A DNA stretch of 64,000 bases from Salinirubellus salinus (GTDB lineage: Archaea > Halobacteriota > Halobacteria > Halobacteriales > Haloarculaceae). Below are positions 18,795-33,276 of this stretch, one piece after another. Each line of letters opens with the position of its first letter. Position 1 is the first letter of the stretch. The stretch covers positions 310,001-374,000 of the forward strand of contig NZ_CP104003.1 in the NCBI RefSeq assembly GCF_025231485.1, given 5' to 3'. Both the position numbers and the translations under genes were made by a program. The notes under the pieces were generated by a model. The model ran no database searches, had not been told where the DNA came from, and saw only the letters and a program-made list of their open reading frames with translations.

Positions 18795-20717
18795 ATGGCG
18801 AGCAACAAGATTCTCGGTATCGACCTCGGTACCACCAACTCCGCGTTCGCGGTGATGGAGGGTGGCGACCCCGAGATCATCCCGAACGCCGAGGGTGACC
18901 GGACCACACCCTCCGTGGTCGCGTTCACCGACGACGCCGAACGACTCGTCGGCAAACCCGCCAAGAACCAGGCCGTCCAGAACCCGGAGCGCACCATCCA
19001 GTCCATCAAGCGCCACATGGGTGAGGCCGGCTACACCGTGGAGATCGAGGGTGAGGACTACACACCCGAGGAGATCTCCGCGATGATCCTCCAGAAGATC
19101 AAGCGCGACGCCGAGGACTACCTCGGCGACGAGATCGAGAAGGCGGTCATCACCGTGCCGGCGTACTTCTCGGACAAGCAGCGACAGGCGACGAAGGACG
19201 CCGGCGAGATCGCCGGCTTCGAGGTCGAGCGCATCATCAACGAGCCGACCGCCGCGTCGATGGCCTACGGGCTGGACGACGACTCCGACCAGACCGTCCT
19301 CGTCTACGACCTCGGGGGCGGGACGTTCGACGTCTCCATCCTTGACCTCGGTGGGGGCGTCTACGAGGTCGTCGCCACGAACGGGGACAACGACCTCGGT
19401 GGCGACGACTGGGACCAGGCCATCATCGACTGGCTCGCGGACGACTTCCAGTCCGAGTACGGTGTCGACCTCCGCGACGACCGACAGGCCCTCCAGCGGC
19501 TGAAGGACGCCGCCGAGGAGGCCAAGATAGAGCTCTCGAACCGGAAGGAAGCCTCCATCACGCTCCCGTTCATCGCGGCCGACGACGACGGCCCGAAGGA
19601 CCTCGACGCGACGCTCTCGCGGGCGAAGTTCGAGGCGCTCACGGAGGACCTCATCGAGCGCACCGTCGGGCCGACGGAGCAGGCGCTCTCGGACGCGGGC
19701 TACTCCAAGTCCGACATCGACGAGGTGCTCCTCGTCGGTGGCTCGACGCGGATGCCGCAGGTCCGCGAGCAGGTCGAGGAGCTCACCGGGCAGGAGCCGC
19801 GGAAGTCCGTCAACCCGGACGAGGCCGTCGCGCTAGGCGCCGCCATCCAGGGTGGCGTCCTCTCGGGCGACGTCGACGACATCGTCCTGCTGGACGTGAC
19901 ACCGCTCAGTCTCGGTATCGAGGTGAAGGGTGGGCTGTTCGAGCGTCTCATCGAGAAGAACACGACCATCCCGACCGAGGAGTCGAAGGTGTTCACCACC
20001 GCGGCCGACTCCCAGACGCAGGTGCAGGTCCGCGTCTTCCAGGGTGAGCGCGAGATGGCCGACCAGAACGAACTGCTCGGGGAGTTCCAGCTCGCCGGCA
20101 TCCCGCCGGCCCCCGCCGGGACCCCGCAGATCGAGGTCACGTTCAACATCGACGAGAACGGCATCGTCAACGTCGAGGCCGAGGACAAGGGGAGCGGCAA
20201 CGCCGAGTCCATCACCATCGAGGGGGGCGCCGGCCTCTCGGACGATCAGATCGAGCAGATGAAAGAGGAGGCCGAGGCACACGCCGAGGAGGACAAGCAG
20301 CGCCGCGAGTTCGTCGAGGCCCGCAACGACGCCGAGGGCGCCGTGCGCCGCGCGGAGACGTTGCTCGAGGAGAACGAGGAGAGCATCTCCGACGACCTCC
20401 AGAGCGACATCGAGTCGGCCGTCGAGAACGTCGAGGACGTGCTCGAGGAGTACAGCGAGGACGTCGACCCGAGCGAGTTCGAGGAGGCGACCGACGCCTT
20501 CGAGCAGGCGACCGAGACGCTCTCGAAGGAACTCCAGGAGATCGGCAAGCAGATGTACGACCAGCAGGCCCAGCAGGCCGCAGCGGGCGGCGCGGGGCCG
20601 GGCGGTGCCGCGGGTGGTCCGGGTGGCGCCGGTGCGGGTCCGGGTGGCGAGGGCGCCGCGGCAGACGGCGAGGAGTACGTCGACGCGGAGTACGAGGACG
20701 TCGACGAGGACGAGTAG
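18795..20717 (+). CDS. dnaK: Hsp70 chaperone DnaK
   Basis: The 640-residue ATP-driven chaperone is full length. The ATPase domain (1-~370) shows [35 protein letters not shown] and [13 protein letters not shown]. The substrate-binding domain begins near residue 375 ([14 protein letters not shown]) and the helical lid follows. The C-terminal 50 residues are rich in G, A and P, then acidic, ending in [14 protein letters not shown], a haloarchaeal form of the EEVD-like tail. It works with GrpE just upstream and DnaJ 2.9 kb downstream, all on the same strand. Confidence 0.98.
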
Positions 20718-21358: not shown

Positions 21359-23128
21359 CTACTCCCCCTCGTGGAGGCGCTCGCCTCGGTGGAGACGAGT
21401 CGCGATGCCGAACGTCTGCTCGGCCTCGCGCCGGGTGGGGGTGTGCGCGGCGAGGTACCGGGCGGGAGCCACGAGCGCGAGCCGGCGGTCTCGTTCGTCG
21501 TCGTCGTCACCGTCGGCCGCGTTCACCGCGTCGAACCGCTGGAACCCCGCCTCCACGTTCTGGATGGTGTGGAAGTCGGCGTCCTCCCGGAGGAGGCCGC
21601 GGCCGAGCGTGCGTTTCAGGTCGGCAGGGTCGCCGCCGGCGTCGAAGTGCTCGTTCACGAGGCGGCCCGCCCGGTCCACCTCGCCCTGTTCGTCGAAACA
21701 GGCGAGCAGGTCCTCGCGCACGTCGGCCGGGTCACGCGAGGTGTCCCCATCGCCCGGTGCGGGGACGGGTGCGGGCGGCGTGTTCAGGAAGCGGTCGAGG
21801 TAGACCGACATCGCCCCGTCGAAACACGCCCGATAGAGCTCGATGGCGTCGGTCTTCGTCGTCGCGCGGTGGACGGCGTTCGCGTAGGTGAGCGTGTGGT
21901 GGGCGGTGTCCCAGTCGGAGAACTCGTTGCTGGTGGCGAAGTAGGCGATACGACGGGTGGCGGCCCGCGCCACGGCGTCGGCCAGCTGGGTCTGTGTGGC
22001 GCCCTCGCGGATGGCGTCGGTCAGCGCGTCGACGATGGCTTCGGGGTCGTCGTCGAGCAGTGTCCCGACGAAGCCCTCGGGGCGGGTCCACGCCTCCCCG
22101 TCGCCGGCGGCGACGAGGTCGGGGAGGAGATCCGCGGCGTCGAAGCACAGCTCGGCCACGTCGATGGGGTTGCGCCACGAGGAGCGCTCCTCCGAGCGGG
22201 TGCCACCGGTGATCTGCGGGATGACCGAGGCGAGCACCGCGTCGGCGTGTTCCTCCCATCCGACGTGCTCGAGCGTCTCGAACGCCTTGTTGACGAAGTC
22301 GAGGGTGTGGCTGGCGTTCATGTAGAGGTGGTCGGTGGCGGCGGCGAACAGCAGTTCGGCGACGTCCTCGCGCGGGAGGTTGGCGAGCGCCGTCAGGAGG
22401 ACGCGTTCGGCGCCGTTCTCGTCGCGGACCTCGCAGTTCTCGCGGAACCACGACTTCAGCCGCGCCTTCGAGACGTTCCGTGAGTCGAACGCGTACTGGC
22501 CGAACCGGGGCGCTTCGCCGGCCGTCTCGTCGGCCACCTCCCGGGCGCCGAGGAACATCGCGCGGCGCTTGTCCCGGCCGCCCACCTCGTCGTAGAGGTT
22601 GGCCGTACAGCCGAGGGTGGTTAGTCCGCGTCCCCACCCCACGTCCCGGTACTTCGTCCCGAAGTTGACGGCTGTCTCGACGGGGGTTGCGAAGCCTTCA
22701 CCTTCCTCGTCGAGCCCGATGACCGCCTTCGCCATCACCAGCGAGAGGTTCTCCTGTAGGCCGTCGGCGAGGCGGTTGCGCCAGTGCGTGGCCGGCGGGA
22801 CGTCCGGTTCCGGGTCGGGGTGGACGAACACCTGTCCGTCGCGTACCTCGACGGGGTAGGTCTGGACGTCGTCCGCCCAGATGTCGAACGTGTCGCCCTG
22901 TTCCAGTTCGAACCGGGCGTGGTGCCAGTGACAGGTGAGGATGCCGTCCTCCACGGAGCCCTCGCTCAACGGGAACCCCATGTGCGGACAGCGGTTGTCG
23001 ACGGCGTACACCTCGCCCTCGTGGGCGAACAGTGCGATGGCGTGGGTGCCCGCGCGCGTGACCACCGGGTCGCCGGGTGCGAGATCGGCGGCGTCGGCGA
23101 CGGGGACCATCTCGTCTGACTGTGCCAT
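21359..23128 (-). CDS. Rieske [2Fe-2S] protein with a large helical C-terminal domain
   Basis: The 589-residue protein has a ferredoxin-type Rieske domain in the first ~110 residues: C47-P-H49 and C66-x-x-H69 (CPHMGFPLSEG, CHWHHARFEL) bind the cluster. The remaining ~470 residues are helical, with conserved-looking histidines (TDHLYMNASHTLDFVNKAF, WDTAHHTLTYANAVHRA). I recognise no known oxygenase catalytic domain there. There is no signal peptide, so it is cytoplasmic. ATG 23128 gives MAQSDEMVPVADAADL, a normal Rieske N-terminus. It may be an oxidoreductase whose catalytic half is uncharacterised. It sits between dnaK and dnaJ on the opposite strand. Confidence 0.8.
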   Translation of the reverse strand: MAQSDEMVPVADAADLAPGDPVVTRAGTHAIALFAHEGEVYAVDNRCPHMGFPLSEGSVEDGILTCHWHHARFELEQGDTFDIWADDVQTYPVEVRDGQVFVHPDPEPDVPPATHWRNRLADGLQENLSLVMAKAVIGLDEEGEGFATPVETAVNFGTKYRDVGWGRGLTTLGCTANLYDEVGGRDKRRAMFLGAREVADETAGEAPRFGQYAFDSRNVSKARLKSWFRENCEVRDENGAERVLLTALANLPREDVAELLFAAATDHLYMNASHTLDFVNKAFETLEHVGWEEHADAVLASVIPQITGGTRSEERSSWRNPIDVAELCFDAADLLPDLVAAGDGEAWTRPEGFVGTLLDDDPEAIVDALTDAIREGATQTQLADAVARAATRRIAYFATSNEFSDWDTAHHTLTYANAVHRATTKTDAIELYRACFDGAMSVYLDRFLNTPPAPVPAPGDGDTSRDPADVREDLLACFDEQGEVDRAGRLVNEHFDAGGDPADLKRTLGRGLLREDADFHTIQNVEAGFQRFDAVNAADGDDDDERDRRLALVAPARYLAAHTPTRREAEQTFGIATRLHRGERLHEGE

Positions 23129-23230: not shown

Positions 23231-23593
23231 ATGGAGACGTTCCTGACCCGACAGCCCATCACCGAGGGTGAGACCTAGCGCGCCCGCGAGCTGCTGGCGG
23301 ACCTGCGAGGCGTCGACGACGAGACGGCGGCGATGGACATCGTGGACCGCGAAGGGGTCCACGTGGAGACCGCGTTCCTCTGGGCGTTCGAGGGGACCGA
23401 CTACATCCTGACCTACTTCGAGGCCGAGGAGGCGGCGCGAGTGCGGGAGGTGTACGACGCGGAGATGGACGCCGCCGAACACGAGTTCGTCGAGGCGTTC
23501 GCCGAGGTGGTCGCCGGGGCGCCCGAACCGCTGGACGCCGAACCGCTCTACCGCATCGCCCGGCCGGGGCGGCCGACCGACGAGGCAAACTGA
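23231..23593 (+). pseudogene. DUF6176-like gene interrupted by an in-frame TAG
   Basis: From ATG 23231 the frame reads METFLTRQPITEGET, then TAG (23276-23278), and continues in the same frame without another stop as RARELLADLRGVDDETAAM to the end (GRPTDEAN). The joined product of about 120 residues looks like a haloarchaeal DUF6176-type protein, in which residues on both sides of the stop belong to one domain. A single GAG-to-TAG change would explain it. Alternatives are a sequencing error, readthrough, or translation of only the last 86 residues from ATG 23333. Codon usage after the stop is still normal, so the damage, if real, is recent. Confidence 0.65.
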
Positions 23594-23650: not shown

Positions 23651-24820
23651 ATGAGCGAGGACTTCTACGAGGTGCTGGGGGTCTCGCGGGACGCCTCAGA
23701 GGACGAGATCAAGCAGGCGTACCGGAAGAAGGCAGCCGAGTACCACCCGGACGTCAGCGACCACGAGGACGCCGAGGAGAAGTTCAAGCAGGTCAAGAAG
23801 GCCAAGGAGGTCCTCAGCGACGAGGAGAAGCGCCGGGCCTACGACCAGATGGGCCACGAGCGGTTCGAACAGGCCGAGAAGCGCGGGGGCTTCGACGGCG
23901 GCGCCGGCGGGTTCGGCGGTGCCAACGGCAACCCGTTCGGCGGCGGTGGCGGCATGGGCGGGATGGGCGACCTGAACGACATCTTCGAGCAGTTCTTCGG
24001 CGGCGGCGGTGGCGGACGCGGGCGCGACCCCAACCGCCCGCAGCGTGGGGCCGACCTCCGCACGTCGCTCACCATCACGCTCGAGGAGGCCTACGAGGGC
24101 GTCACGAAGCAACTCACCGTCACGCGTCCGGAGCGCTGTCCGGAGTGCGACGGCGAGGGTCACCCGGCCGACGCCGAGGCCGAGACCTGCCCCGACTGCG
24201 ACGGGCAGGGACAGCGGACCACCGTCCGAGACACGCCGCTCGGTCGGGTCCAGCAGACCCAGACCTGTCGCCGCTGCGGTGGGCAGGGGACGCTCTACTC
24301 AGAGACCTGCTCCCGCTGTCGCGGCGAGGGGAAGGTCCGCGAGGAGGCCACGTTGAACGTCGACATCCCGGCCGGCATCCGGACCGGCCAGACCATCCCG
24401 CTGGAGGGCGAGGGTGCCCCCGGCGAGAACCGCGGGCCGAACGGCCGCCTGCTCATCGACGTGGAGGTCGAGGACCACGAGGCGTTCGACCGCGAGGGCG
24501 ACGACCTCTACTACCGCCTGCCCGTCTCGTTCCCGCAGGCGACGTTCGGCGCGACGGTGGAGGTGCCGACGCTCGACGGTGCGGTCACGACGGACATCGA
24601 GGCCGGCACGCAGTCCGGCGAGGTGCTCCGCCTGAAGAGCAAGGGGATGCCGCGCGTCCAGCGCCGGGGCCAGGGCGACCTCTACGTGCAGGTGCAGGTC
24701 GTCACACCGACGGACATGAACGAGGAGCAGCGGGAGGCCCTCGAGCAGTTCGCCGAGGCCGGCGGCGAGGAGATAGAGGTGGAGAAGGGGTTCTTCGAGC
24801 GGCTGAAGAGTTCGTTCTGA
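23651..24820 (+). CDS. dnaJ: Hsp40 cochaperone DnaJ
   Basis: The 389-residue DnaJ has an N-terminal J domain with the HPD motif at residues 32-34, a G/F-rich region (about 75-125), four zinc-binding CxxCxGxG repeats between about 155 and 220 ([32 protein letters not shown]), and the C-terminal substrate-binding domain. It delivers unfolded proteins to DnaK and stimulates its ATPase. A TATA-like TCTATTCA (23613-23620) precedes it, so it has its own promoter despite lying downstream of grpE and dnaK. It converges with the hydrolase gene with a 2-base gap. Confidence 0.97.
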
Positions 24821-32118: not shown

Positions 32119-33276
32119 ATGAGCGACGTCCCCGAGACCCTGTCCGTCACCGAGGACGACTCGTTCGCGTTCCCGGTGACGGACGTGCTGACGGGACGGG
32201 GGTTCGTCACGGGGAAGTCCGGGTCGGGGAAGTCGAACACCGCGAGCGTCCTTGCGGAGGAACTGCTGGCGGCCGGCCTCCCGCTGCTCGTGGTAGACGT
32301 CGACGGCGAGTACTACGGGCTGAAAGCGCAGTACGAACTGCTCCACGTGGGGGCGGACGAGCGGTGTGACATCCGAGTCGGGCCGGAACACGCCGACCGA
32401 CTCGCCGCGCTCGCCCTCGAGGAGCACGTCCCCGTCGTCCTCGACGTATCAGGCTTCGTAGAGGAGTCCGCGGGCCGCGAGGTGGTCGCCAGCGTCGTCC
32501 GGTCGCTGTTCGCCCGGGCGCAGACCGCTCGGACGCCCTTCCTCCTCCTCGTGGAGGAGATACACGAGTTCGTCCCCGAGGGGCGGGGGCTGGACCCGGC
32601 GGGCCAGATACTGGTTCGGGTCGCCAAGCGCGGGCGCAAGCGTGGTCTCGGTCTCGTCGGCCTCTCCCAGCGCCCCGCCGCCGTCGACAAGGAGTTCATC
32701 ACGCAGTGTGACTGGCTCTGCTTCCACCGGTTGACGTGGCAGAACGACACGAAGGTGGTCGGCTCGGTCCTCGGGAGCGAGTACGCGAAGGAGGTGGAGA
32801 CGCTGGCCGACGGCGAGGCGCTGGTCCGGGCGGACTGGGCCGACGCAGTCCAGCGGGTCCAGTTCCGCCGCAAGCGCACGTTCGACGCGGGCGCGACGCC
32901 GGACCTCGGCGAGGTCTCGCGTCCCGAGTTCCGGTCGGTGGACGAGGCGCTGGTGGCGGAACTCCGCGGTGTCGACGGCGAGACGAGCGACGCGGCCGAC
33001 ACGGACTCCGCGGAGGTCGAACGCCTCCGCGAGCAGGTGGCCGAGCGCGACGCCCGCATCGAGGAACTGGAGCGTCGCCTCCGGGAACTCGACGGGGACG
33101 CGACCCCGCGCGACCGAGGTCCGGCACGGCAGGAGGACGACCCGGTGTGGGAGGCCGGCCAGCTCGTGAGTCACGCGGTGGGCTCGGCGTGGCGCGGCCT
33201 CACGCGACCGTTCAGACGTCGTGGAGAAGAACAGGCGGCCGACCCACCGGAGGACCCTGACGCCTCAGCCGAGTAG
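32119..33276 (+). CDS. HerA-like ATPase (DUF87)
   Basis: The 385-residue AAA-type ATPase belongs to the HerA/FtsK superfamily. Walker A is GKSGSGKS (residues 32-39), Walker B is LLLVEEIHEFVPEG, and an arginine-finger region (RVAKRGRKRGLGLVGLSQRP) follows. A C-terminal coiled coil (EVERLREQVAERDARIEELERRL, split here: EVERLREQVAERD and ARIEELERRLREL) ends in a basic patch. Classical HerA works with the NurA nuclease in end resection; no NurA is adjacent, so the DNA or membrane role is unclear. The end overlaps dapE, which converges on it, by 12 bases. Confidence 0.85.
   Translation: MSDVPETLSVTEDDSFAFPVTDVLTGRGFVTGKSGSGKSNTASVLAEELLAAGLPLLVVDVDGEYYGLKAQYELLHVGADERCDIRVGPEHADRLAALALEEHVPVVLDVSGFVEESAGREVVASVVRSLFARAQTARTPFLLLVEEIHEFVPEGRGLDPAGQILVRVAKRGRKRGLGLVGLSQRPAAVDKEFITQCDWLCFHRLTWQNDTKVVGSVLGSEYAKEVETLADGEALVRADWADAVQRVQFRRKRTFDAGATPDLGEVSRPEFRSVDEALVAELRGVDGETSDAADTDSAEVERLREQVAERDARIEELERRLRELDGDATPRDRGPARQEDDPVWEAGQLVSHAVGSAWRGLTRPFRRRGEEQAADPPEDPDASAE

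Follow-up and report, generated by a model that had tools for sequence, protein, structure and literature searches.

Stop-codon readthrough in archaea has been demonstrated for selenocysteine and pyrrolysine, the cases named in passages of a review (PMC8211752). In the pyrrolysine type, an in-frame UAG is located inside a coding region, and the same arrangement is found in a gene of Salinirubellus salinus lying in the 64,000-nucleotide stretch analyzed here (hereafter the window; contig NZ_CP104003.1, positions 310,001 to 374,000). Unlike pyrrolysine-type decoding, however, this gene is accompanied neither by a pyrrolysyl-tRNA synthetase (PylS) above the profile cut-off nor, in an incomplete tRNA list, by any tRNA found to carry a CTA anticodon. 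The gene belongs to DUF6176 (PF19673), described by Pfam as a family of unknown function, and a literature library search with the term DUF6176 found no paper. Its closest intact counterparts are the orthologues of two Halorarius species, which share the start position, the reading frame and the gene order with the window copy and have similar lengths (116 and 117 vs. 120 residues), but lack the single TAG that the window copy carries at codon 16. As detailed below, the available evidence indicates, with a probability of roughly 0.86, that a recent nonsense mutation has switched off this accessory gene. The coordinates of the locus are collected in table 1.

Table 1. Features of the interrupted DUF6176 locus (positions in the window) and the nearest intact relatives
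Feature	Position	Strand	Remarks
DUF6176 (PF19673) gene	23231..23593	+	120 codons, single interruption; called a young pseudogene here (probable)
In-frame TAG	23276..23278	+	Codon 16; GAG (Glu) and GAC (Asp) in the two nearest intact orthologues
Downstream ORF	23333..23593	+	86 residues; both Halorarius orthologues have a conserved internal Met at this ATG
Rieske-domain gene	21359..23128	-	Divergent neighbour, 589 aa, N-terminal Rieske [2Fe-2S] domain
dnaJ	23651..24820	+	57 bp downstream of the DUF6176 gene
dnaK	18795..20717	+	Identified by visual inspection of the sequence and by syntenic genes of 83-85% identity in both Halorarius genomes
Nearest intact relatives			Halorarius litoreus NZ_CP101454.1 (G008); Halorarius halobius NZ_CP101161.1 (G027)

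The layout of the interrupted gene agrees with what the earlier note had described, namely a frame that opens with the ATG at 23231, resumes after the TAG, and ends at a normal stop (TGA, 23591-23593), with an 86-residue frame in its downstream part. The assignment to DUF6176 was likewise borne out by a profile search, in which the read-through protein matched PF19673 over residues 1-92 with 47.9 bits and the portion after the ATG at 23333 alone scored 29.3 bits, both exceeding the curated 27-bit cut-off. The match therefore extends to both sides of the TAG, which places the stop inside one gene, and the same match was returned by a whole-genome search, flagged there as containing one TAG. The coding character was said to be unchanged across the stop, and the GC content by codon position is indeed coding-like in all three parts of the gene, with values of 0.53/0.47/0.87 over just 15 codons ahead of the TAG, 0.89/0.47/0.95 over the 19 codons from there to the ATG at 23333, and 0.77/0.42/0.92 thereafter. 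The break at 23276 was also flagged by two codon-score scans of sampled stretches of the genome. Across the S. salinus genome (4,376,714 bases, two contigs), the interrupted gene was the single DUF6176 match, and no paralogue able to replace it was found by the whole-genome search.

Alignment with DUF6176 relatives, one of the checks proposed in the earlier note, revealed that both Halorarius orthologues start at the position of the ATG at 23231 and are intact through the TAG site, where the Glu codon belongs to H. litoreus and the Asp codon to H. halobius (the G027 protein being 100% identical to the Halorarius halobius protein). The window copy thus bears a premature stop opposite sense codons of its orthologues, as in a nonsense pseudogene. 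Glu likewise occupies this site in L014 and L015, which are more distantly related, so that the anticipated glutamate was recovered in three of the four relatives, with Asp in H. halobius, and the TAG is one base away from the H. litoreus codon. The Met encoded at 23333 lies internally in both Halorarius orthologues (within AAMDI), so relatives whose gene begins at that position, which would have spoken against a split gene, were not what the alignment returned. The window protein is identical to that of H. halobius at 85 of 116 positions and to that of H. litoreus at 73 of 117, whereas the two Halorarius proteins share 89 of 116. The surrounding order is also common to the three loci, with the Rieske-domain gene on the opposite strand followed by the DUF6176 gene and dnaJ, and with dnaK beyond the Rieske-domain gene. 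The latter has a 70-71% identical counterpart in the corresponding position of each Halorarius genome, and the spacing between the DUF6176 gene and dnaJ ranges from 57 to 68 bp across the three loci. Searches against plasmids gave no match to the DUF6176 gene by tblastn, and the DNA of the locus matched plasmids over the Rieske-domain gene and dnaJ with none over the DUF6176 gene among the best 20 of 35 records.

We next consider how long the gene may have been broken. In a codon model with the TAG entered as missing, five sequences (117 columns) yielded an omega of 0.112 along the window branch, compared with 0.045 elsewhere; an omega of 1 on the window branch was rejected (2dL 9.30, p 0.002), and the window branch did not differ significantly from the rest (2dL 2.20, p 0.14). 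This model contains a long internal branch (3.9-4.4) that is probably saturated. A model free of that branch, limited to the window gene and the two Halorarius genes (116 columns), agreed with it, with an omega of 0.087 on the window branch and 0.066 on the rest, rejection of an omega of 1 (2dL 17.74, p 2.5e-5), and equality of the window branch and the rest retained (p 0.64). The gene is hence constrained over most of the window branch, which means that the lesion is young or that the gene still works; purifying selection of this strength (omega 0.09-0.11, p 0.002 or less) argues for a young break. The C-terminus of the window protein reads YR and PGR, in contrast to the other four aligned proteins, which largely have YH and PDR or PER, and these changes of conserved residues (YH to YR, PDR to PGR) may hint at relaxed constraint.

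DUF6176 is patchily distributed: it was found in 18 of 146 genomes belonging to the taxonomic family and in 80 of 392 sampled from the order, with S. salinus itself counted in both cases. Within these 392 genomes, an internal stop was observed in 5 of 101 DUF6176 matches, which represent four independent cases including the window. Besides the TAG of the window, these comprise a TAG in G092, a TAG in G310, whose match is below the PF19673 cut-off, and two TGA copies in G313, which score equally, belong to a stretch duplicated within that genome, and of which one was read. Similarly to the window copy, the copies of G092, G310 and G313 have one internal stop in a gene that is otherwise open, but their stops (TAG, TAG and TGA, respectively) fall elsewhere and were taken as independent events; by eye, the stop is near codon 42 in G092, four residues before the window site in G310, and further in for G313. 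The G092 copy (L003, G092:C1:2311380-2311688), a DUF6176 gene with a single TAG, is otherwise high-scoring (102.9 bits), and 11 of 21 other alignment rows have Tyr in its TAG column. A readthrough conserved across the family was discarded, as the stop is absent in both close orthologues and located elsewhere in the three other broken copies.

For comparison, the DnaJ central domain (PF00684), searched in 99 genomes of the order, showed no internal stop among the matches listed, which is a weak control because this domain is shorter and its gene probably more strongly constrained. A search of 57 genomes with a DUF7537 protein of S. salinus (L068) gave one internal stop in 6 of the 51 matches listed, of which two were TAG, two TGA and two TAA (own copy included), although some of these matches may join neighbouring genes. 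With all three stops represented, breaks of this kind are confined neither to DUF6176 nor to TAG.

The genome of S. salinus itself was also scanned for similar breaks. A first scan of 464 kb produced 16 split-gene candidates, half of which have a start codon within two codons of the stop and may therefore represent neighbouring genes; six of the other eight were discarded by eye as antisense or shadow frames, leaving the window gene and L068, and L070 was missed although present in the sample. A second scan, with competition between frames over 864 kb (the window plus 40 stretches of the genome), produced four candidates; one of them (L076:12677, TGA, margin 2.2) was dropped as unconvincing, and the three convincing single-stop breaks were the window gene, L068:10809 (TAA) and L070:842 (TAG). 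Both scans are blind to frameshifts, and the second also omits stops closely followed by a start codon. The DUF7537 gene (L068:9840-11000; C1:1389839-1390999) is interrupted by a single in-frame TAA located 63 codons before the end of the frame, a homologue on C2 of the same genome aligns beyond that point, and its protein gave no match to plasmids by tblastn. A TnpB-like gene situated just past the right edge of the window (L070:560-1750; C1:374560-375750; PF07282, 83.5 bits) carries a single in-frame TAG, which corresponds to Tyr in the two haloarchaeal plasmid copies examined.

Whether TAG could be decoded in this organism was addressed through stop usage and through the searches for PylS and for a TAG-decoding tRNA that had been proposed earlier. 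Of 232 long coding-like frames in the 864-kb sample, 157 end with TGA, 61 with TAG and 14 with TAA, and this use of TAG as a terminator rules out its genome-wide reassignment. The best PylS match in the genome reached 20.9 bits, below the cut-off of 178.15, in a search at E <= 0.1 in which all 14 control genomes also matched, one of them above the cut-off; pyrrolysine decoding was rejected on this basis, with pylB, pylC, pylD and tRNA-Pyl outside the by-name search. None of the 44 Rfam tRNA matches of the genome has a CTA anticodon, in a list that is incomplete, as it is without a tRNA-Pro found by ARAGORN in L067 and has no visible tRNA-Trp. All 44 were named by ARAGORN, some only with introns permitted, and the name of one (C1:1480265) is doubtful, being Pro according to ARAGORN and Glu by our own reading. 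A genome-wide pattern combining a CTA anticodon with a T-loop gave 13 matches vs. 7 for the reversed control; five of the 13 lie within listed tRNAs, while at the remaining eight sites ARAGORN detected none. No suppressor tRNA thus emerged from the Rfam matches, ARAGORN or the CTA pattern, the tRNA list being incomplete. A local RNA structure acting as a stimulator was likewise dismissed, the folding of 23231-23380 being unremarkable (z 0.99). ARAGORN also reported a tRNA-Arg (acg) at 32815-32900 of the window, which is absent from the Rfam tRNA matches and is probably a false positive.

The earlier note had named a recent nonsense mutation, an assembly error and readthrough without choosing among them, and the orthologues, the selection analysis and the use of TAG as a terminator now favour the nonsense mutation. 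The main alternative is that the TAG is a consensus error of the assembly, or arose by mutation during laboratory cultivation, and that the wild gene is intact. The single-base distance to the H. litoreus Glu codon, together with a remainder of the gene that is open and constrained, fits this alternative, but the two-contig assembly has completeness and contamination ratings of 100% and 2.27%, respectively, and finished assemblies generally contain few isolated substitution errors. Furthermore, the scan for in-frame stops yielded three convincing single-stop breaks in 864 kb, including that of the TnpB-like transposon gene, which gives no sign of a widely error-ridden sequence, and we regard an error or a culture mutation as unlikely. 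A further possibility concerns the protein of 86 residues starting at 23333, which the earlier note thought could still be made and which, as a real functional product, would be compatible with a real nonsense mutation, so that the odds of the two are not exclusive. Its PF19673 score exceeds the cut-off, but its initial Met is internal in both Halorarius orthologues, its profile match starts at position 37 of 109, leaving out the conserved N-terminal part, and no clear ribosome-binding site is seen by eye just upstream of 23333. With an internal Met and the first third of the profile missing, the suggestion is weak and such a product very improbable.

Readthrough of the TAG, by a suppressor or pyrrolysine-type tRNA or through its context, with the full-length protein still made, would account for a frame that is open and constrained on both sides without a second lesion, and TAG interrupts three of the four DUF6176 genes of the order that broke independently, the window copy among them. 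Against it stand the PylS result, the lack of a CTA anticodon in the incomplete tRNA list, the common use of TAG as a terminator in the sampled genome, the unremarkable local RNA and the differing stop positions in the broken copies of relatives. The second TAG of the genome, in L070, lies opposite Tyr in two plasmid copies and not Glu or Asp, and a single dedicated suppressor is ill-suited to two TAGs that replace different residues. Readthrough here, if true, would also be outside the archaeal cases, selenocysteine and pyrrolysine, named in those passages of PMC8211752. We consider it extremely unlikely and without positive support in these data, and a partial readthrough by an unrecognised near-cognate or suppressor tRNA, giving DUF6176 protein at a low level, deserves no more credence. 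A point against the nonsense mutation is that the disruption is single and the frame otherwise coding-like and constrained, a pattern likewise expected from readthrough or from an error in base calling. Taken together, the intact syntenic orthologues, the constrained branch, the unshared stop, the role of TAG as a terminator and the lack of a PylS above cut-off favour a nonsense mutation, probably an ordinary and recent one.

According to this preferred reading of a nonsense mutation, the change at codon 16 would inactivate the accessory DUF6176 gene, as translation would stop after 15 residues and presumably leave no functional product, a loss that may be tolerated given the patchy distribution and presumed dispensability of the family. 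The main consequence is for annotation, where the ORF starting at 23333 ought not to appear as an intact protein. The locus would represent a further case of accessory gene loss in haloarchaea, with one nonsense mutation as its most likely cause and with additional decay yet to set in.
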